The notes under the pieces: generated by a model | Database searches by the model: none | Told to the model about the DNA's origin: nothing | Seen by the model: only the letters and a program-made list of their open reading frames with translations | From: Planctomycetota bacterium | GTDB taxonomy: Bacteria; Planctomycetota; Planctomycetia; Gemmatales; Gemmataceae | Direction of reading: 5' to 3' | Assembly: GCA_016873095.1 (NCBI GenBank) | Contig: VGYC01000005.1 | Location: 1 to 64,000, forward strand | Length of the DNA stretch: 64,000 bases | Position numbers and translations under genes: made by a program | Shown here: positions 5,122 through 32,960 of the stretch, one piece after another | How the letters are laid out: every line of letters starts with the position of its first letter | How positions within the stretch are numbered: the first letter of the stretch is position 1

Positions 5122-8100
5122 TCAGATCCATGTTGCCACTATCTTCTCGTCGGCGGTGATGCCGATTTCTCCGGGCCGGGGGAGGATGACCGTCTTGCAT
5201 TCCGGACAGCTCACGCCGTTCCTGGCAAGCAGGTTGCGGATGCCTTCGGCGGAACGATAGCCGGTGTCGGCGCCCGCTTGCACAACGAAATCCTTGAAAA
5301 AATAGCGGAACCACTTCTCCAGCAGCCGGGCGTAATTCTCGGGACTGTCCTCGAACCAGAACCGTTCCGTACCGATGACGAGTTCATAGCCGCCCCTCTG
5401 CTGGTTGCGGCGTGACAGGACCTCGATGGTTGCAGGCATCACAGTGAAAAGCACATCTTGAAACCATACGCCGCGCTGGCAAAGGGTGAGCGGCGCCCCC
5501 TCGACTGCGAGCAACAGGTCCGGATAGGCGTCAAGCGCGCGGCCGCCAACTTTGGGTGTGGCGGCCAGCTCGAAGGCACTGACGGCGCGACCAATGCGTT
5601 CCCATGGACCATTCGCCTGCATGAGCCACAGGTAATGTAGCTGGGCGAGCCCTTCGAGGTCGTCCGTCGCCAGCAGTTTCTTGAGCGCCGGCACCACCAG
5701 GCCGAGATCGACGAGCGTCGGCAGTTGCACACCGGCGGCGAAGGCACGGTCGCAGAGCATGATCTTGAGGCGATTGAGCTGCCCGCGCGTCCAGGTCGGC
5801 GAGTTTTCCGCGGCACGACTGGCCAGATCCTGCAGCAGCAAACCAGCATAAGTCAGCGGCATCCGCCCGGCAAAACACCGGCCAACCTGCTCGGCAATGG
5901 CACGGCAGGGATCGTCACCGCGATAGATCTCGTCTTCGGCGGACAACCGCCACAGTGCCGCCAGATGCGGCACGTAGGCGGCATTGTCACGAGCCATCCT
6001 GTCCACGATCTCGCGACAATGTTCCAGCGGCGCGGCACGCTGCATCCGATCACCGTGGTCGTGGCTTATCCTGGCAAGCCCGGCGAGGTAGTCTGCTTCT
6101 GCCGGACCTGGCCTGTCCGGGAAAAGTTCACTGGCCAGTCGCAGCCAGGCCCAGTTCACCAGCCGATCCGCGGCCATGTCGGGCGCCGGCCAGGCCAGGT
6201 AAATCAGCCCACTCAACAACAGCCCCAGCCCCGTCGCCAGCACCAAGGCCGCAGCAATCGGCAAGCGGCCGCCGCTGAGCAGTTCGGCCACAAGAAAGCC
6301 GGCGAGCACGATCGGACCGATGAACAATGCCAGGGCGCCGTTGCGTGTCAACACGCGCCCCGGCTCCCGGCCGTCATATAGCACCTCGTCATCGCTTTCG
6401 ATCCGCAGACGCGGAAACAGCCCGGCGTCACTGACTTCGAGTCGATAGCCGAAGCCTTCGAGGGCATCATCGCTCTGCGTCAGTTCCGGCTCCGGCGGTG
6501 GTGGCACGCAAGGAACGCGGCCATAGCAATGAGGACAGAGCGATGCGTGCTTCTCGCGAGCACGCTCCAGCAGTGAGGACAGGGCTTGACGGTCCTCGAT
6601 GCCGTGCCGCAGCATGAGTCGCTGCAGGCGCCGTCCTCCGGTGCCTGGATCGAGCTTGTGGGCCAGCGATTGACAGCGTTCCAGCACGGACAGGTCCTTT
6701 TCCAGACGATAGTCCTCCAGCCAATCTTCCATGAGCCGCCAGGGTTCGCGCACGCGCCGGCCGTCCAGCATCAGGCGGTGGCAGTCCCAGAGGTGATCGA
6801 CCATCTGGGCGCGGCGAAGCTGCACGCCGCAGCGCGGGCAATCCATGCGCACCTGGTCTTCCAGCTCGGCGCTCAGGCGATCGATCTCGGCCGCTTGACC
6901 GACAAGTTGCTCGAGTTGCCGGAGCTTCTCGATGGCCCGCAACTTGCCCGCGCCGGCGACGGCGGCTTGCAGGACCCGGCGCGCTTCCGGTCCGTTCTTA
7001 CCTACGGCACGAATCAATGCCGCCGTCGCGCTCAGCCTGGCTTCGCGCGGCACGTACTTGTCGCTGAGCAAGGGCAGGACGGCTTCCATGAGGAGCACGT
7101 CGATGGGCGGCCTGAGCCGTGCGGCAATCTCGAGCGCCAGCCAGCGTTGCAAAGCCTGGATGCCGGGCAGTTTGTGAGGCCGGAGCAACGCCGGGATAAG
7201 CCGACCGCCGTCGCCGCTTCCTGCCAGCACCTCACCCAGTCCCGCGATCATGCCGGATCGCGCATCGCGGGGTACGTCGCGTAGCTTCTGACCAAGCCAG
7301 TGAAGCAGCCGCGCATCGGCCTCCTGCGGATGGCGGTCGCGAGCAATTTCCGCAAGCGTCCGCCAGGCGGATGTATCCGGGCTGGCGGTGCAGATCCGCT
7401 CCAGCAACAGAGCACGCATCTCGGCGAAAGGCCGGCGCACGCCGCGATACTCGAATATGCCATGGGCCCGGCGCAAGTGGGTCTCCAGATCGATCAGCCG
7501 AATCCGCGTCCGACACTCACTGCAGAAAACCGGCCGTTCTTGCTGCAACTCGACCAGGCAGGCGTGGGCCATCGCTTCCTCCAGCCCCAGGCCCGGCAGG
7601 TGCAGACAGAGCAGGATCTTCTCCTCGAGCAGATCGTCAGGCACGAGCTTGTCGAGGAGGAGGCGCAGATCGGCAACAGACAGCTTCGACCCGCGAATGG
7701 CAGCGGTCAACGCTGGCAGCATGAGCTTGCGTCCAATCTGCCGTAGCCGGGAGTCGCTGCAGCGTAACAACCCGGCGAACAGACTCGCGTCGACCGTCCG
7801 ACCCAGACAGGAAACGAGACCGTCGAAGGGCGTAAGCGATTCGGCAATCTCGCGCTGCCCGGCCGGCACCGCAAAGCGAGCGCGCACAGCCATTTCCAGA
7901 AATGCACAGTAACGTTGCGCCCGGTCTTCGTCGGCGCCGGCAAGCTCCAGCAACTGCGCATGAGCTTGGGCATCCGCGCTGGTGAAGACGCGGTCCCAGA
8001 GCCGGTCCAGGGCAACATCGCGCGGCAGCAGCGCGCCAAAAACATCGATGTAGCCGTGGGCGGCGCGCAAATGCTCGGGCCGATCGCGCCCGGTCAGCTC

Positions 8101-9942
8101 GATGCGGCACACAGGACAGGTCGAGGGGCGATCTCCTTCGAAAGCATTTACCGTGCGTTGAATCTGCAGGTCATCCACACCGATCTGCTTGAGGGAAAAC
8201 GCCGCGGCAATGGCATCATCGATGCGGCCGCGGCCAAGTGCTTCGGCAACGCGACGCACGCGGGCGTCGCCAGGCGGCCCGGCGTCGTTCAACAGCCCGC
8301 GTGCCGCCGCCAGCCGAAGTTGCGGTAGCGGATCGGCCAGCGCCCGCCACAAGAGCGCATCCGCCGGCGCCGATCGCGCCGTCAGCGGCTGGATTGCCGT
8401 CAGCCGCTGAATCGCCCAGCCACGCACCGCTGGCAGCGCGGAGGCAAGCAGCGTCTCGGAAAGCTCGGCGTAATCCAGCACCTGATAAAGCAGTTCCAGG
8501 CAAGCCGGTTCCGGTGCATCGACCTGGTTCGCTCGAGACTGACCTTGCAGCCAGCGAAGCAGGCTGTCCCTGTCGGGGCGAAGCAACTCGCCGTGCGTGG
8601 GGACTGACGGCGAAGCGGCGACGGCGGGCCGTTTCCGTGTGCAGATCGAATAGGAAACATCCCCCTCCCCTGGGGCGCCAGCATCGTCGATGATCGACGT
8701 CAACGGCCCGTCGTAGATGATCTCGTCTTGCGGAATCGTTGTGTCCAGTCTGGCCCCGCTAGCTCGGCGCACGACGATGTCGAGGTCGCCGGCCGCTTCC
8801 CCCGCATCGATTAGCACCTTGGCAACACCGCCGGGAGCCCGGACGGCGACGGCGGCTGCCACCGGCGCGGTCGGCGGCGCCACCAGCCAGGCGCGCAACT
8901 CCGCCACCGAACCGGGCCGGCGCCGCGCATCCCAGTGGAGCAACTGCCGGAATAACCCCAGCACATTGCCCGGCCAGCCGTGTACGAGTGCATCGGACGG
9001 CACACCGAGTTGCTCGGCCCAGTTGCGTGCATGGCTTGGTGGCACGGAGCGCAACGACCGCTCCATGGCGGCGTAGTGTTCGCGCTCGAGGTTTGCCCAG
9101 CCTCGGCCTTGCACCGCGGCGATCTTGCCCGGATCTTCTCCGGTGAGAAGGTAATAACCAAGGCAGCCCCATGAGAAGAAGTCACTACGTACATCCGGCA
9201 GCCGCGACGACGTGACACATTCCGGCGCCGCGAAGCCGGGAGCGTAGCGGGGCGGCGGAAAGAATTTTTGCCACCGCTCGCGAACTCCGTCGGCGAACGG
9301 CGCATCGACAGGCCAGACGGGCAGACCAGCCGCGCTGCCCGGAGGCGTCAGCACCATGTCCGTGCCGACGAAGTGGACGCGATTGGTCCGATCCACGTAC
9401 ATCGCGGCCGGCGTCAAGCTGTTGATCACGAGGCCCCGTTCGTGAGCCTGGCGAAGAAACTCCAGGGACTCGGCCAGCACCGACAATAGCGACGCCAGCG
9501 GCAGAACCTGCTTTTGCCATTCATCCAGGCGCAACCCGTGGGGATGCGCAAGGACGATGACCGGTTCCCGTTCCGCGGCGTTCACGGCCAGGGAATCGCG
9601 CGAGTTGGCGATTTCGAAGAAATCGACCGGTTCGGGCCAGAGCCGGCTGTGCCGTCCGCCGAGAATGCCGCGCGCTTCCGCCCGGGCCATCGCCCGCCGT
9701 CCCGCCACGTATTCCGCATCGTCCGCGTGCGAATATTGAATGGTCCGAATCAGGACGTCCAGCCATTCCTTGTCGTCGGTCTCACGCGGTCTCTTGGACG
9801 TGAAGTCGAAGTTGTAGAGTACCTTCTTGCCCGAGTACAGACCCGACCAGGCGGTCTCGCAAACCACACCGGTGACGAGATATCCACCCGGCTGATCCCC
9901 CGCGCCCGATCCGCTCAGCCGCTCGCCGACGTGGAGCCTCAT
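5122..9942 (-). CDS. giant pseudokinase / zinc-finger repeat / membrane protein
   Basis: This 1,606-residue protein begins with a kinase-like domain (about 25-370). The N-lobe is hard to align. The catalytic loop reads INSLTPAAMYVD where HRDLKPxN is expected, so the catalytic Asp, Lys and Asn are gone and no DFG is visible. The APE equivalent (FAAPEC) and the following SDFFSWGCLGYYLLTG remain, so the fold is probably kept without catalysis. Helical, HEAT-like sequence follows, punctuated by three C2H2-type motifs near residues 607, 805 and 1033 (CPVC, CSEC or CPRC, then HLRAAHG, HLRRAHG or HLWDCH). Another CPHC lies near 1134. Two membrane helices lie near 1200-1247, and a C-terminal domain carries a final CPEC. 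I chose the ATG at 9942; an upstream in-frame GTG at 9993 is an alternative. An active-looking kinase gene lies nearby. Function is unknown; a membrane scaffold is my inference. Confidence 0.85.
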   Translation of the reverse strand: MRLHVGERLSGSGAGDQPGGYLVTGVVCETAWSGLYSGKKVLYNFDFTSKRPRETDDKEWLDVLIRTIQYSHADDAEYVAGRRAMARAEARGILGGRHSRLWPEPVDFFEIANSRDSLAVNAAEREPVIVLAHPHGLRLDEWQKQVLPLASLLSVLAESLEFLRQAHERGLVINSLTPAAMYVDRTNRVHFVGTDMVLTPPGSAAGLPVWPVDAPFADGVRERWQKFFPPPRYAPGFAAPECVTSSRLPDVRSDFFSWGCLGYYLLTGEDPGKIAAVQGRGWANLEREHYAAMERSLRSVPPSHARNWAEQLGVPSDALVHGWPGNVLGLFRQLLHWDARRRPGSVAELRAWLVAPPTAPVAAAVAVRAPGGVAKVLIDAGEAAGDLDIVVRRASGARLDTTIPQDEIIYDGPLTSIIDDAGAPGEGDVSYSICTRKRPAVAASPSVPTHGELLRPDRDSLLRWLQGQSRANQVDAPEPACLELLYQVLDYAELSETLLASALPAVRGWAIQRLTAIQPLTARSAPADALLWRALADPLPQLRLAAARGLLNDAGPPGDARVRRVAEALGRGRIDDAIAAAFSLKQIGVDDLQIQRTVNAFEGDRPSTCPVCRIELTGRDRPEHLRAAHGYIDVFGALLPRDVALDRLWDRVFTSADAQAHAQLLELAGADEDRAQRYCAFLEMAVRARFAVPAGQREIAESLTPFDGLVSCLGRTVDASLFAGLLRCSDSRLRQIGRKLMLPALTAAIRGSKLSVADLRLLLDKLVPDDLLEEKILLCLHLPGLGLEEAMAHACLVELQQERPVFCSECRTRIRLIDLETHLRRAHGIFEYRGVRRPFAEMRALLLERICTASPDTSAWRTLAEIARDRHPQEADARLLHWLGQKLRDVPRDARSGMIAGLGEVLAGSGDGGRLIPALLRPHKLPGIQALQRWLALEIAARLRPPIDVLLMEAVLPLLSDKYVPREARLSATAALIRAVGKNGPEARRVLQAAVAGAGKLRAIEKLRQLEQLVGQAAEIDRLSAELEDQVRMDCPRCGVQLRRAQMVDHLWDCHRLMLDGRRVREPWRLMEDWLEDYRLEKDLSVLERCQSLAHKLDPGTGGRRLQRLMLRHGIEDRQALSSLLERAREKHASLCPHCYGRVPCVPPPPEPELTQSDDALEGFGYRLEVSDAGLFPRLRIESDDEVLYDGREPGRVLTRNGALALFIGPIVLAGFLVAELLSGGRLPIAAALVLATGLGLLLSGLIYLAWPAPDMAADRLVNWAWLRLASELFPDRPGPAEADYLAGLARISHDHGDRMQRAAPLEHCREIVDRMARDNAAYVPHLAALWRLSAEDEIYRGDDPCRAIAEQVGRCFAGRMPLTYAGLLLQDLASRAAENSPTWTRGQLNRLKIMLCDRAFAAGVQLPTLVDLGLVVPALKKLLATDDLEGLAQLHYLWLMQANGPWERIGRAVSAFELAATPKVGGRALDAYPDLLLAVEGAPLTLCQRGVWFQDVLFTVMPATIEVLSRRNQQRGGYELVIGTERFWFEDSPENYARLLEKWFRYFFKDFVVQAGADTGYRSAEGIRNLLARNGVSCPECKTVILPRPGEIGITADEKIVATWI

Positions 9943-9954: not shown

Positions 9955-10106
9955 ACGCAACCGCAACCGGTTGGGAGCGATCGCTGACTGCACGTAGCCG
10001 CGATAGGTGCTGCCGAGAATTGAACCATGCGAAAAAGTTGTAGACGGACGCTGGCGGAAAAAGTACCCCTGACAGAGTAGGGACGTCGTCCACGAGGAAT
10101 GCAGTC

Positions 10107-10454
10107 ATGTCAGACACGCCGCTCGTCGGTGCGGACCATCGCGATGGGCTTCCGCCATTTCATTTCGGCTGCGCGACCGACATCTTTCCGCTGGAGGAAC
10201 TGAGCGCATTGCAGGAGCACGGCCAGCTATTTGAAGCGCTGGCCGCCGGAGCCATACCGCCGACGACGCCGGAACACCTGCGATTCTTGCGCGTCAATCG
10301 CGAAGAAATCGAGCCGGCGACCATCGAGGAACGCGCCTGGCTGCGCCTGAAGGGGCGACGGGAATTCGAAGCCGAACGCGCTGCCGCGGTTCCGCCGCCG
10401 CCCGCCGAGGACTATGGCATCATTGAGTGGGACAAGGAGAAGTGCTGGTGGTAA
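10107..10454 (+). CDS. DUF413/MaoP-like small protein
   Basis: A 115-residue cytoplasmic protein. The core pattern resembles the DUF413 (macrodomain Ori protein MaoP) family: FHFGCATDIFPLEELSALQE, then HGQLFEALAAGAIPPTTPEH, RFLRVNREEIEP, and ATIEERAWLRLKGR. The C-terminus is acidic with Trp (EWDKEKCWW). In enterobacteria MaoP helps organise the Ori chromosomal macrodomain; whether that role holds here is unknown. GAGGAA lies upstream of the ATG. It converges on the kinase gene, with 22 bp between the stops. Confidence 0.65.
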   Translation: MSDTPLVGADHRDGLPPFHFGCATDIFPLEELSALQEHGQLFEALAAGAIPPTTPEHLRFLRVNREEIEPATIEERAWLRLKGRREFEAERAAAVPPPPAEDYGIIEWDKEKCWW

Positions 10455-10476: not shown

Positions 10477-11547
10477 TCACTCGGCCAGCATCACCGCCGT
10501 CAGCGCCTTTTGCAAGCTCTCCGCGTCGGCAAAGCGCTTCTCCGGCTGAAAGTCGAGACAGCGCTCGATGAGCCGGCGTAGTTCGGGACGACAGTTTCCT
10601 TCCAGCAGCCTGGTGTCCAGGTGGACGGCACGCGGCTGGTTCTTGCCCAGCGACATGCCGAGGAACTCGGCGGGGGCACGGCCAGTCAGGAGATGGAAGA
10701 GCGTGCTGCCGACGGTGTAGACGTCGGCAGCCGGCGTCAGTGTGCCGTAGGGTTGCTCGCATTCAGGCGGGCAGTAGCCCGGCGTGCAGGCGCCTTGCAA
10801 CAGCTTTTGTCCCGTGTCCAGGTTCAGGAGCTGGCAGCCGCCGAGGTCGAGGACGGTGACACGATCCTGGTCCGTCAGCAGCAGGTTGGCGGGTTTCAAG
10901 TCCTGGTAGATGAGCCGCCAGGTCATGCCGGCACGCATTGGCCTCGGCTCATGCAATGTCTGCAAGACATCGACCACTTGCTGCATGATGCGTAGACTGC
11001 GCGCTTCGGAAAGCTTCTGTCCAGGCTGGCTCTTGAGAAATTCTTCCAGCGTTTGCCCGGCGATGGGCTCCATGATGAGATAGGGCTCGCTGTTGATCAT
11101 CTCCGGATCGTCGAAGGTCCACTGGTCGCCTTCCTCGGTGGCAAATGGACCGGCGAGTAGCGGATTGGTGTCGAAGACAAAGTCGTTGGGATGCGGCACC
11201 GCGTTACAACCGGCGTTGCGCAGCAGCACGAGGATGCGCCGCTCCATCTCCAGCGTCTTGCGCGGCAAGCGCAGCTGATTGGTGAAACCTTCCTGGTCGC
11301 GAACCCGAGCGTACGGAACCACGTCGTAATGCAGGATGCTCTTGATGAGGACTTCCGCACCGGTGCGCTGATCCTGCCCGGTGAGGAGAAGGCCCATGCC
11401 GCCGGAGGCGAAGAAATCGAGCACGCGATAGCGGCCGGCGAGCGGCTGGGCGATGGCGTACACCCGCCCGCGGTTGTCGCCGCGCGGCACCTCAGCCCGG
11501 ATGAACGACCGCCCGCCCCAGCTGAATTCCTGCCCGCGAGTGTTCAT
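10477..11547 (-). CDS. serine/threonine protein kinase
   Basis: A 356-residue soluble kinase with no membrane helix. The glycine-rich loop is at FFASGGMGLLL (near 45), and the ATP-binding Lys is probably in AEVLIKSILH. The catalytic loop is YQDLKPANLLL (near 213), with HRD changed to YQD but Asp, Lys and Asn all kept. DLGG replaces DFG, PGYCPPE replaces the APE region, and DVYTVGSTLFHLLTG is subdomain IX. It ends soon after subdomain XI (PEKRFADAESLQKAL), so there is no extra sensor domain. The ATG at 11547 is preferred over a TTG at 11556. It shares a strand and region with the pseudokinase gene; a substrate or regulator relation is possible but unproven. Confidence 0.9.
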   Translation of the reverse strand: MNTRGQEFSWGGRSFIRAEVPRGDNRGRVYAIAQPLAGRYRVLDFFASGGMGLLLTGQDQRTGAEVLIKSILHYDVVPYARVRDQEGFTNQLRLPRKTLEMERRILVLLRNAGCNAVPHPNDFVFDTNPLLAGPFATEEGDQWTFDDPEMINSEPYLIMEPIAGQTLEEFLKSQPGQKLSEARSLRIMQQVVDVLQTLHEPRPMRAGMTWRLIYQDLKPANLLLTDQDRVTVLDLGGCQLLNLDTGQKLLQGACTPGYCPPECEQPYGTLTPAADVYTVGSTLFHLLTGRAPAEFLGMSLGKNQPRAVHLDTRLLEGNCRPELRRLIERCLDFQPEKRFADAESLQKALTAVMLAE

Positions 11548-28899: not shown

Positions 28900-29739
28900 A
28901 TGCCCTATGCCGCCGAAATCAGCCGCACCAACCCGTCGTGCTTCCTGTTCTTGCTGGACCAGTCGGGATCGATGTCCGATACTTTTTCCGGCGGCAGCAA
29001 GAAGAAGGCCGACGGTGTGGCCGACGCCATCAACAAACTGCTGCAGACGCTGGTGCTGCGCTGCTCGAAGTCGGAAGGCGTGCGCGATTATTATCATGTC
29101 GGCGTCATCGGCTACGGCAAGAAGGTCGGTCCGGCGCTGGGCGGCAACCTGGCCGGCTTCGGGCTGGTCCCCATCAAGGTAATCGCCGACAACCCATTAC
29201 GCATCGAACAGCGCACACGCCACAGTGACGACGGCGCCGGCGGCATCCTTACCCAGACAGTCAAATTCCCCGTCTGGTTCGAGCCGGTCGCCCACGGCCA
29301 GACGCCGATGTGCGAGGCCTTCGACCAGGCCTGGCACCTGGTCAGCGCGTTCATCGTCCAGTTTCCAGGCTGCTACCCGCCCATGATCGTCAATATCACC
29401 GACGGCGAGGCGAGCGACGGCGACCCGACGCCGCGCGCGGGCATGGTCCGGGACCTGGCCAGCACGGACGGCAACGTGCTGCTGTTCAACGTGCATATTT
29501 CCGCGTCGGCCAGCCAGCCAATCTTGTATCCAGACCGGGAAGCGTCCTTGCCGGACGAATTCGCGCGGTTCCTGTTCCGGATATCGAGCCCACTGCCGCC
29601 GGCGATGCTGCAAGCTGCCCGTCGCGACGGGCAAGCGGTCAGCGACGCCAGTCGCGGCTTCGTCTTCAACGCCGACCTGGTGTCGCTGATCAAGTTTCTC
29701 GACATCGGCACGCGTGTATCCGACAAAAACCTACGCTAG
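28900..29739 (+). CDS. vWA domain-containing protein (TerY-like)
   Basis: A 279-residue cytoplasmic protein with a von Willebrand factor A fold. The metal-ion-dependent adhesion site is DQSGSMS near residue 20, with the Thr/Asp pair supplied by VNITDGEASDGD near residue 165. HVGVIGYG and QTPMCEAFDQAWHLV lie between. The C-terminal half has no added domain. In TerY-P systems a TerY-type vWA protein works with a PP2C phosphatase and a kinase; the next two genes here fit that pattern. GGGAGA precedes the ATG. The stop is 11 bp before the phosphatase gene. Confidence 0.9.
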   Translation: MPYAAEISRTNPSCFLFLLDQSGSMSDTFSGGSKKKADGVADAINKLLQTLVLRCSKSEGVRDYYHVGVIGYGKKVGPALGGNLAGFGLVPIKVIADNPLRIEQRTRHSDDGAGGILTQTVKFPVWFEPVAHGQTPMCEAFDQAWHLVSAFIVQFPGCYPPMIVNITDGEASDGDPTPRAGMVRDLASTDGNVLLFNVHISASASQPILYPDREASLPDEFARFLFRISSPLPPAMLQAARRDGQAVSDASRGFVFNADLVSLIKFLDIGTRVSDKNLR

Positions 29740-29750
29740 CCGGGAGGATC

Positions 29751-30491
29751 ATGGAAGCGCGATCCGTGTGGCTCCCCAAGCGGGGGCATTCGCTGGATGA
29801 ATACGAGGATGCCGGCGCAGCCGATCCGGCGCTGGGCCGTTTCGCCATCGCCGACGGCGCCACGGAAAGCTCCTTTGCCGGCCCGTGGGCCCGCCTGCTG
29901 GCGGACGGCTTCGTCAGCGCCGCCGGGCCGCAACCCGGCCGCTGGTCCGACTGGCTGCCAGCGCTTCAACAGCGCTGGCTGGAACAGTTTCGCGACAAGG
30001 AGCTGGCCTGGTATGCGGAGGCAAAGCTGGAAGACGGCGCTTTCGCCACGTTTCTAGGCCTGACACTCTGCGCGCCGACGGGTTTCTTTATGGAGCGCAG
30101 GAAATGGCACGCCGTGGCCGTCGGCGATGGCTGCCTGTTCCAGGTTCGCGACAACGAACTTTATCGACCGTTCCCGATCGAACGCGCCGAGGATTTCGGC
30201 AACACGCCCTGGCTGATCGGTTCGCGCAACGATTCGTCGAAGAGCCTGCGACAAAAGGAGCTGCGCGCCAAGGGCGACTGGCGGACGGGCGACTGCTTCT
30301 GGCTCATGACCGACGCTCTGGCGCAGTGGTTTCTTACCGACATCGAGGCTTGCGGCACACCCTGGACCAAGCTCGAGGCGGTCCTGGGCAGCGACGATTC
30401 CCAGGAACGGTTCGCGGACTGGGTCGAGGATCAACGCGATCGGCAGGCGCTTAAGAATGACGATGTCACGTTGATTGTCGTCAACGTGTAA
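29751..30491 (+). CDS. PP2C-type protein phosphatase
   Basis: A 246-residue soluble protein of the PP2C/SpoIIE phosphatase group. The metal-binding motifs are AIADGATESSFAGPWA (the Asp-Gly motif near residue 27), AVAVGDGCLFQVRDNE near residue 122, and KNDDVTLIVV near the end. GDCFWLMTDALAQWFL carries the Asp of another metal motif. It would remove phosphate from Ser/Thr residues, most simply those put on by the kinase encoded next. GGGAGG lies directly upstream of the ATG at 29751. It is the middle gene of the vWA-PP2C-kinase triad. Confidence 0.85.
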   Translation: MEARSVWLPKRGHSLDEYEDAGAADPALGRFAIADGATESSFAGPWARLLADGFVSAAGPQPGRWSDWLPALQQRWLEQFRDKELAWYAEAKLEDGAFATFLGLTLCAPTGFFMERRKWHAVAVGDGCLFQVRDNELYRPFPIERAEDFGNTPWLIGSRNDSSKSLRQKELRAKGDWRTGDCFWLMTDALAQWFLTDIEACGTPWTKLEAVLGSDDSQERFADWVEDQRDRQALKNDDVTLIVVNV

Positions 30492-30527
30492 GAGCCTGAC
30501 GTGCCTGCTGAGGGCTGCGCGACTCAT

Positions 30528-30586
30528 GTAGCAGGGAATTCCGATTCCGTGCGTGCATTTCGCACGGAATCGGAATTCCGTGCTAC
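30528..30586. repeat. inverted repeat between PP2C and kinase-WD40 genes
   Basis: Two 26-nt arms (30528-30553 and 30561-30586) pair with one mismatch around a 7-nt loop. The arm contains GGAATTCCGATTCCGTGCG, typical of Gemmata-type intergenic palindromes as I recall. It is not followed by T's, so a rho-independent terminator is unlikely. It may uncouple the kinase from the phosphatase, or act as a mobile palindrome. Confidence 0.85.
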
Positions 30587-30620
30587 CTTGACGGCGCAGC
30601 TGCCATTAGAGAGGTTCGCC

Positions 30621-30692
30621 ATGACCTGGCCGGAGAACACCGATTACAGTGAGGCCATCTAGAATCCACGCGTCAATCTGGCCGACCCGGAG
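30621..30692 (+). pseudogene. interrupted N-terminus of the kinase-WD40 gene
   Basis: An ATG at 30621, with GAGAGG upstream, opens MTWPENTDYSEAI, then TAG at 30660-30662 stops it, and the same frame resumes NPRVNLADPEL into the kinase. As I recall, related planctomycete kinases read AIQNP at this point, so the stop probably comes from CAG to TAG. The downstream gene would then use a TTG at 30693 or an ATG at 30723. Confidence 0.7.
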
Positions 30693-32960
30693 TTGCAGCA
30701 GGGCGAGGCGGTCGCCACTGCCATGGGCATGCCCATCGTCCGCTCCGGCAACTTCGCCGATGTCTACGAGGTCCGCTGTCCGTCCGGCCATGGCTACGCC
30801 GTCAAGTGCTTCACCCGCGAAGTCAAGGACCTGCAACAGCGCTACCTTGCCATCAGCGATCATCTGAACCAGGTCGCGCTGCCTTTCACCGTTGATTTCC
30901 AGTACCAGGAGAAGGGCATCCTCATCAAGGGCGGCTGGTTCCCGATCCTGAAGATGCGCTGGGTCGAGGGACTGACGCTGAACCGCTTTGTGGACGAGCA
31001 TGCGGACAAGCCACACATTCTCGAACAACTCGCGCAGATGTGGGTTAAGCTGGCGCACAAGCTTCGCAAGGCAAACATGGCCCATGCCGACCTGCAACAC
31101 GGCAACGTGATTCTCGTCTCGGGAAAGACAGCCAGTTCGTTACGGTTGCGGCTGATCGATTACGACGGCATGTTCGTGCCGGCGCTGGCGCACACGGCTT
31201 CCGGCGAGGTCGGCCATCCTAACTTCCAGCATCCCGAGCGCATCGCCCAGGGCATCTACAACGCCGAGGTGGATCGCTTCTCGCATCTGGTCATTTACAC
31301 GGCGCTGCGTTGCCTGATGGCCGGCGGCAGGACGCTCTGGCAGAAATACGACAACAGCGAGACATTGCTATTTCGCGAAGCCGACTTGAAATCGCCGGGC
31401 GCGTCCGCGGTTTTTCAGGAACTCTGGCAACACCGCGACGCGGTGACGCGCACGCTCGCCGGCCACTTGATGCTTGCCTGCAGCGGCGGCCTTGCCAGCG
31501 TGCCGCTTCTGGACGACATTATCGTCAACGGCCACCCCGTGGAATTGACGTCTCAGCAGGCGCAGGCAGTCGCCAGCTTGCTGAACACGGGGAATGGCCA
31601 CGCGGCCTCGCCACCACCGCCTCCCGATGTCTACACAGCCGCGCCCGCGGAAACGGCGCCGGTTCCGGCACAAGCCCTCGCCTATGGCGTCAAGCCACCG
31701 GAAATCACGCCGGGGAGAGAACCCCTGGAATGGCTAACTTCGGCGCGCGAGGCAACCCGTGGCCATGCCGGGCGCACGGCGACCTCAGGCCGGCCGTCTC
31801 TGGCACAGCGGCAACAGCCGAATCGCGCCCGAACGCTGCAAATTGTCGGATTCACGACCCTGGGGCTGGTCTTGCTGGCGGTCGTCGTCGCGGTGGCGCT
31901 TCGCCCTTCGAGAGAACCCGACGAGCCCGTCGCGCACGCGCCGCCGCCGCCGATCGTAGTCCCGAAACCGCCCGACGTTCCTCCAGTCAGTTTTCCCGGC
32001 GGGCACCCTGGACTATCGGCCATCGCCATCTCGCCGGACGGGAAGACGGCGGCCACCGGCGGCGGCGGCTTCATCCGGACCTGGAATACCTCGAAACGGC
32101 TCAAGCTCCGGGAACTCAAGCTAACGCGCGACGGCACGCCGTATTCCGGTCGCGGCTGGCACTCGACCAACCGCAATGTCGCCTTTCTCGCCTTCGGAAC
32201 GGACGGCAGTGAGGTCCTGGCCGGCGCCGGCATGACCCTGCTGTTGCTCAGCCCGGACTCGACCTTTCTGCACCACAGCTTGCTTCCGGGCGGCGGTCAA
32301 ATTGTGGGCGGAAGCTACTATGGTGACCCGGATGCTCCCAAGGACCGGCCCAAGCCATTTGTCTATGCCCATAGTTCCGGCAGTTTCATTCGCTGGAACT
32401 GGCAAGATACGGCGGAGGGCAAGGGCCAGGTTGCAGCGGAACTCATCAAAACAGCGTTCACGACTGATGGACACAAGGCCCTGTGTGTGGATAACGGCGG
32501 TGGATCACCGGGTGTGCATCTCTGGGACGTGAAGAACGGCATGCAACTCGAGAAGCCTCCATTATCGGGAGCGCATGTTGCGCTGACGAGCGATGGCAAG
32601 CTGGCCATGTCGAGTGCGGTTGGTTTGTCGCGAACTCTGTGTTTCTTGCCCCTGGATGAGACGTTGCCCGCTGGAACGCCACCGAGCGCGCCGCGCGTGC
32701 CTGTACCGGACGAGATCACGGGTATGGCACTATCAGCCAACGGCAACCACGCCATCGCCACGACTGCAGACGGCAAGCTGCATCTATGGCATGTGCCCAC
32801 GCGCCAGGAAGTCATGCGGATGGACATCGATCGACCCAAGACGAATTCCAGCCCGCGCTGGTGGCACACGGTCGCGTTTGCGCCCGATGGCAAGCACATC
32901 CTGCTGGGGAGCGTGACCGGTGCGCTACAATGGATAACGTTGCCCAAGAATGCTCGGTGA
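30693..32960 (+). CDS. protein kinase-like / WD40 membrane protein, N-terminus broken
   Basis: From a TTG at 30693, 755 residues. The nucleotide loop is GNFADVYEVRCPSG and the ATP Lys is in YAVKCF. The catalytic loop is HADLQHGNVIL and IDYDG is the DFG counterpart, so catalytic Asp, Asn and metal Asp are kept. After a Pro-rich linker there is one membrane helix near residue 390 (IVGFTTLGLVLLAVVVAVAL). The C-terminal half has WD40-type repeats: SAIAISPDGKTAATGGG, VHLWDVKNG, KLHLWHVPTRQEV, VAFAPDGKHILLG. It is the third gene of the vWA-PP2C-kinase triad. A TAG at 30660 interrupts the better start at 30621, so the protein is made only from a weak start or not at all. Confidence 0.8.
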   Translation: MQQGEAVATAMGMPIVRSGNFADVYEVRCPSGHGYAVKCFTREVKDLQQRYLAISDHLNQVALPFTVDFQYQEKGILIKGGWFPILKMRWVEGLTLNRFVDEHADKPHILEQLAQMWVKLAHKLRKANMAHADLQHGNVILVSGKTASSLRLRLIDYDGMFVPALAHTASGEVGHPNFQHPERIAQGIYNAEVDRFSHLVIYTALRCLMAGGRTLWQKYDNSETLLFREADLKSPGASAVFQELWQHRDAVTRTLAGHLMLACSGGLASVPLLDDIIVNGHPVELTSQQAQAVASLLNTGNGHAASPPPPPDVYTAAPAETAPVPAQALAYGVKPPEITPGREPLEWLTSAREATRGHAGRTATSGRPSLAQRQQPNRARTLQIVGFTTLGLVLLAVVVAVALRPSREPDEPVAHAPPPPIVVPKPPDVPPVSFPGGHPGLSAIAISPDGKTAATGGGGFIRTWNTSKRLKLRELKLTRDGTPYSGRGWHSTNRNVAFLAFGTDGSEVLAGAGMTLLLLSPDSTFLHHSLLPGGGQIVGGSYYGDPDAPKDRPKPFVYAHSSGSFIRWNWQDTAEGKGQVAAELIKTAFTTDGHKALCVDNGGGSPGVHLWDVKNGMQLEKPPLSGAHVALTSDGKLAMSSAVGLSRTLCFLPLDETLPAGTPPSAPRVPVPDEITGMALSANGNHAIATTADGKLHLWHVPTRQEVMRMDIDRPKTNSSPRWWHTVAFAPDGKHILLGSVTGALQWITLPKNAR

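Follow-up and report, generated by a model that had tools for sequence, protein, structure and literature searches.

A Gemmataceae protein that joins a pseudokinase-like domain to finger-bearing helical repeats and a predicted membrane hairpin

A single-frame gene and its kinase-like N-terminal domain

The window that we analysed, a stretch of 64,000 nucleotides from a planctomycete of the family Gemmataceae, carries on its minus strand a gene (5122..9942) whose single open frame counts 1,606 codons and a stop; the initial annotation had both the coordinates and the length of the product right. An alternative GTG at 9993, 51 bases upstream of the ATG at 9942, would lengthen the protein by 17 residues; we take 9942 to be the better start because, from the position equivalent to this ATG, the aligned homologues likewise begin with M-[RK]-L-x(2)-G-[EQ]-R. 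The start and layout of the 1,606-residue protein recur in 12 other Gemmataceae genomes (i.e., 13 of 95), the frames of these long members are free of internal stops, and the homologues are under purifying selection. Searches of Pfam and NCBIfam returned sub-threshold matches only, none above its curated cut-off in the tables listed, which agrees with the earlier remark that no named family has this order of parts. The protein is a new architecture built of known kinds of parts.

The N-terminal domain (residues 1–356; 8875..9942, minus strand) had been described as kinase-like, and by profile and by the predicted fold of its C-lobe it is indeed a relative of the protein kinases. An 11-member profile of residues 1–370 matches kinases of the PDB (E 9e-8), and a Foldseek search with the predicted model of residues 1–1025 ranked PknB first (E 3.4e-5, prob 1.00). 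Pfam Pkinase matches nine of 11 members at E <= 0.1; on the 1,606-residue protein itself this match spans residues 234–344 at E 2.2e-4, which is below the cut-off. The structure models were built from alignments of 10–11 rows that left out short-form sequences (see below), and the N-lobe (residues 1–136) has a pLDDT below 50; support for the kinase fold rests on the C-lobe.

The catalytic apparatus of this domain is degenerate, as the initial annotation recognised from the loss of the catalytic Asp, Lys and Asn. Within residues 173–195 (9358..9426, minus strand), placed by the family alignment and by a HMMER alignment to OSR1, INSLTPAA stands for HRDLKPxN and GTD for DFG; the other members have [LIV]x[GS]LGPx[AS] at the first of these sites. 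Every feature by which an active Ser/Thr kinase is recognised (the HRD Asp, the catalytic Lys and Asn, and DFG) is replaced in the members aligned: the Asp by Ser or Gly, the Lys by Thr or Gly, the Asn by Ala or Ser, and DFG, read in ungapped register, by G-[TSA]-[DE] in most members and by A-S-D in one (L040). The domain does keep, again as previously claimed, the APE region (GFAAPE) and subdomain IX (RSDxxxWG) at residues 236–259 (9166..9237, minus strand), with invariant columns A239, P240, E241, R252, D254, W258 and G259. The alignment also reveals conserved, unusual motifs in the N-lobe (NFDF, KRxRET and EWLDV), and position 195 holds an acidic residue. Because the N-lobe is modelled at such low pLDDT, the domain may still bind nucleotide or have some unusual activity. 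Between pairs of relatives, dN is lower in the pseudokinase domain than anywhere else in the protein (dN/dS 0.13–0.15 for the domain); such constraint, despite the loss of the catalytic motifs, indicates that it is retained for something besides ordinary catalysis.

Comparison with known kinases and pseudokinases helps to place this domain. It shares with Ser/Thr kinases of the PknB/Stk1 type (PF00069) the C-lobe kinase fold, the APE region, subdomain IX and the subdomain XI Arg, whereas it lacks the HRD Asp, the catalytic Lys, the Asn and DFG, and its N-lobe is unrecognisable; moreover, PknB/Stk1 proteins have one membrane helix with PASTA domains, whereas here an N-terminal kinase domain precedes a putative zinc-finger solenoid and a two-helix hairpin. 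The GLW pseudokinases are mostly proteobacterial, with the motif GLW for HRD and poly-Leu in beta3 (PMC12599244). Both they and the present protein replace HRD by small or hydrophobic residues and are membrane-associated, whereas the latter has [LIV]x[GS] at this site, lacks poly-Leu and thus lies outside the GLW family as defined. EssB/YukC is a membrane pseudokinase in which all catalytic motifs are lost and which recruits secretion machinery in a scaffold role (PMC12599244). It is monotopic, belongs to type VII secretion in Firmicutes and has not been described with zinc fingers, whereas two membrane helices are predicted here; we found no sequence link, and the resemblance would be an analogy of function, not membership. 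No secretion genes were recognised by eye among the ORFs that neighbour the pseudokinase gene. Weak matches to the defence kinases PglW, MAD6 and PD-T4-6 cover only the generic region of the kinase part, for which reason we rejected a defence function; no defence neighbours were identified.

Helical repeats, putative zinc fingers and a probable split zinc ribbon

Immediately after the pseudokinase domain, DSSP of the model delineates a seven-strand beta-sandwich (residues 363–454; 8581..8856, minus strand) that has no Pfam match. By strand count only, it would be Ig/Fn3-like; an Fn3-like reading found no profile support and was set aside. Most of the protein outside the kinase part is predicted to be helical, and three blocks, HEAT-like in the models, each contain one finger-like motif: block 1 (residues 480–700; 7843..8505) with finger 1, block 2 (residues 700–910; 7213..7845), which also occurs in relatives of ~820 aa, with finger 2, and block 3 (residues 900–1145; 6508..7245) with finger 3 and the helices that follow it (all on the minus strand). 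These blocks are homologous. Profile–profile comparison with hhalign pairs block 1 with block 2 at prob 98.3 and E 1.1e-14, block 3 with block 1 at prob 92, and block 3 with block 2 at prob 49.6 with the fingers in register; controls, in which the repeat blocks were compared with the kinase and C-terminal regions, reached a prob of 22.5 at most. The proposal that the fingers close recurring helical blocks of ~200 residues is therefore upheld, and the models place helices both before and after each finger. No HEAT family is among the Pfam matches listed; helical hairpins appear in the models of these homologous blocks.

The fingers themselves lie on the minus strand at residues 609–629 (CPVC-x11-H-x4-H; 8056..8118), 807–827 (CSEC-x11-H-x4-H; 7462..7524) and 1035–1055 (CPRC-x11-H-x4-H; 6778..6840). 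All four ligands of each are invariant in the aligned homologues (C609, C612, H624 and H629 in finger 1; C807, C810, H822 and H827 in finger 2), those of finger 3 in both long and short forms. Since the ligands are invariant and the blocks that end in fingers are homologous, the motifs are not a chance occurrence, and they would be expected to bind zinc. The initial designation of C2H2 fingers holds for the ligands, in that all three fingers carry the conserved C-x2-C...H-x(3-5)-H pattern of C2H2-like fingers; it needs adjustment for the spacing (C-x2-C-x11-H-x4-H, with Leu after the first His, or Ile in one), which on sequence is closer to that of Di19/UBZ-like than of classical C2H2 fingers. 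Di19, UBZ and C2H2-like fingers (PF05605, PF18439) share the C-x2-C and HLxxxH ligands; in contrast to them, each finger here stands alone at the close of a helical repeat, at a distance of ~200 residues from the next. Similarity to the Pfam family zf-Di19 is weak, with 12 of 21 members matching at E up to 1, below cut-offs. The initial annotation had set two outcomes against itself in advance, no predicted kinase fold and Cys/His motifs that vary among homologues; what we found is a predicted kinase fold (C-lobe) and motifs that are invariant in the homologues aligned.

The model of residues 1015–1606 (pLDDT 82.8, pTM 0.77) describes the membrane-proximal and C-terminal parts, all coded on the minus strand. 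A CPHC motif (residues 1136–1139; 6526..6537), flanked by two short strands (residues 1133–1135 and 1142–1144), precedes a four-strand beta domain (residues 1160–1192; 6367..6465), after which come the two membrane helices that had been claimed: by model and hydropathy, helix 1 spans residues 1200–1223 (6274..6345; peak 2.38) and helix 2 residues 1229–1250 (6193..6258; peak 2.33). Averaged over 66 proteins, Lys plus Arg number 3.1 in the 20 residues that precede this hairpin, 0.7 in its loop and 3.5 in the 20 residues that follow it; by the positive-inside rule, both flanks are predicted to face the cytoplasm. One short form on a long branch (L102, genome G008) has no helix above the hydropathy threshold.

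Beyond the hairpin, the model predicts an alpha-solenoid (residues 1257–1449; 5596..6174; pLDDT mostly 80–94; no significant PDB fold match), then seven strands followed by one long helix (residues 1476–1556; 5275..5517). The latter's order of strands and helix is as in PH-like domains, but neither profile nor fold searches gave a significant match to a PH domain. A Foldseek search with the C-terminal model yielded no hit below E 0.1, and neither the C-terminal solenoid nor the beta domain has a significant fold or profile match. A second CxxC motif, CPEC (residues 1579–1582; 5197..5208), sits in a beta-hairpin of the model and is present as C-x2-C in 57 of 59 homologues. The initial annotation had a C-terminal domain with CPEC and had the claimed parts in their places; it overlooked the helical and beta domains that lie before CPEC, as well as CPHC and the seven-strand domain at residues 363–454. 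CxxC at the CPHC position occurs in all 59 proteins with finger 3, and both motifs together in 57 of the 59, each in a predicted beta-hairpin; the two probably form one four-Cys zinc ribbon that is split across the membrane hairpin. Two members of genus g32 (L063 and L081) have CxC in place of the C-terminal CxxC (RCGCGAG and RCRCGAD) and keep the CPHC equivalent.

Distribution, history and an upstream DUF255 gene

Long relatives were found at ten loci, all of them in planctomycete MAGs and most in Gemmataceae. Within this family, the N-terminal 931 residues have a match in 13 of 95 genomes (seven genera), and the C-terminal core of 670 residues in 68 of the 95 (33 of 39 genera), at about one copy per genome once matches interrupted by gaps or contig ends are merged. 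The core is absent from the 391 other Planctomycetota sampled and from the genomes of other families of the order that were searched, it corresponds to no family of Pfam or NCBIfam (no match above cut-off in the tables listed), and most members of its family are short, at 650–860 aa. No free-standing N-terminal half was found in the 95 Gemmataceae genomes.

In a tree of 59 core proteins, rooted at the midpoint for drawing only, the 13 long forms make up one clade (support 100/100) nested among short forms, and forms with fingers 2 and 3 occupy the neighbouring clade. Because the long clade nests among short forms, growth at the N-terminus requires the fewest changes: the pseudokinase half probably joined an older family later and is not the protein's core, and loss from a long ancestor is a possible, costlier alternative. 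The relatives record a stepwise build-up, from a core with finger 3, through the gain of finger 2, to that of finger 1 with the beta-sandwich and the pseudokinase.

The short forms have a recurrent neighbour. In 16 genomes the short-form gene comes directly after a DUF255 gene of the same orientation (L011, L020, L021, L029, L059, L062, L063, L069, L077, L078, L081, L087–L090 and L094), at a gap that is often a few tens of bases or an overlap and in one case ~260 bases. We saw no such linkage in the long-form loci; DUF255 genes are present elsewhere in long-form genomes. The one DUF255 product that was read as an example starts with a signal-peptide-like stretch. An apparent 1,769-residue fusion of DUF255 and core (L087, genome G061) was rejected: its upstream part is an out-of-frame reading of the DUF255 gene.

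Proposed role, rival readings and other genes of the window

In view of the observed kinase homology, loss of catalytic motifs, conservation of metal ligands, homology of the repeats and clade history, we tentatively favour a cytoplasmic scaffold that sits on a membrane hairpin and uses the pseudokinase as a non-catalytic docking module. The older core, which comprises a helical repeat, finger 3, the presumed split zinc ribbon and the hairpin together with the solenoid and beta domain of the C-terminus, would be a Gemmataceae-specific, membrane-anchored interaction protein; profile searches found no enzyme family in it, which is consistent with a scaffold. The two-helix hairpin would anchor it on the cytoplasmic side of the membrane, and the CPHC and CPEC halves would meet across this hairpin, which would lock both membrane-proximal parts to one side, the cytoplasmic one. 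One clade would have extended the N-terminus by copies of the repeat and by a kinase domain unable to transfer phosphate in the usual way, with the zinc-capped helical repeats serving as a rod that presents it. The pseudokinase would then dock or switch, in the simplest case by binding one of the cells' many Ser/Thr kinases or their partners; Gemmataceae carry 98–140 such kinases (PMC11032199).

Several considerations count against this scaffold: the kinase gene next door (10480-11496) was not found next to the other long members, the N-domain may retain some activity, the finger surfaces could bind nucleic acid, and the DUF255 linkage of short forms, together with the signal-peptide-like start of the DUF255 product, gives a hint of an envelope or redox function. 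In one rival reading, the protein would be a membrane-tethered nucleic-acid-binding protein, with fingers that contact RNA or DNA and a pseudokinase that either regulates this contact or binds a partner. The weak similarity to Di19 and matches to C2H2 proteins of solved structure (including a C2H2 nucleic-acid-binding protein and CTCF; best E 0.038) are what suggests it; however, these matches are not significant, the fingers stand ~200 residues apart with no tandem array, and x11 with HLxxxH is also typical of ubiquitin- and protein-binding fingers, and we consider this reading unlikely. Somewhat less probable again is a redox or zinc sensor partnered by DUF255 (YyaL/SSP411-like, thioredoxin-fold), in which Cys clusters would change state and the solenoid would relay the change. 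Its attraction lies in the conserved CxxC pairs and in the same-strand DUF255 gene directly upstream in 16 genomes; yet the DUF255 example begins with a signal-peptide-like stretch whereas the Cys motifs of the core are predicted to be cytoplasmic, no long-form locus shows the linkage, and long-form genomes carry their DUF255 genes elsewhere.

The remaining rivals concern the N-domain itself. It could have an atypical enzymatic activity, as was discovered for SelO and SidJ, instead of being inactive: purifying selection, the conserved NFDF, KRxRET and EWLDV motifs of the N-lobe and the acidic residue 195 would fit, whereas replacement of the HRD Asp, the catalytic Lys, the Asn and DFG, along with a low-confidence N-lobe model that offers no ATP site, makes us as doubtful of it as of the redox sensor. 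That the domain is a degenerating kinase fusion without function, as the lost catalytic motifs might suggest, is highly improbable: long members have no internal stops, they form one conserved clade that spans seven genera, and a pseudokinase dN/dS of about 0.14 contradicts relaxed selection.

A bolder version of the scaffold, which we regard as rather improbable, would make the protein a Gemmataceae-specific platform for membrane organisation or signalling, with the split zinc ribbon closing around the hairpin and the pseudokinase added later as a control module. If this version were true, the pseudokinase would form a new class and its anchor would be of a new kind. Gemmataceae have elaborate, heavily invaginated internal membranes; a single-copy membrane protein confined to this family, with a selected, catalytically dead kinase in one clade, offers a defined gene for study. 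A review of bacterial pseudokinases covers seven families and describes none as having zinc fingers or as occurring in planctomycetes (PMC12599244); pseudokinases and zinc go unmentioned in a survey of planctomycete kinases (PMC11032199). The literature searched, open-licence papers only and hence weak evidence on this point, does not describe the present architecture.

The window holds further kinase-like genes. At 10480-11496 on the minus strand lies a kinase that is well above the Pfam cut-off, with YQDLKPAN for HRDLKPxN and DLGG for DFG; this active-looking kinase was considered as a conserved partner and rejected, since we did not see it next to the other long members. Between it and the pseudokinase gene, and antisense to both, a gene at 10107-10454 (plus strand) encodes a DUF413 protein (PF04219, E 1.1e-7, above cut-off). 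At 28900-32960 on the plus strand, three consecutive genes resemble a VWA protein and a PP2C-like phosphatase (ending near 30491), both recognised by eye, and a kinase; in the third, where Pfam supports the WD40 part only and the kinase part is below cut-off, the kinase-like region is joined by a membrane helix and WD40 repeats.
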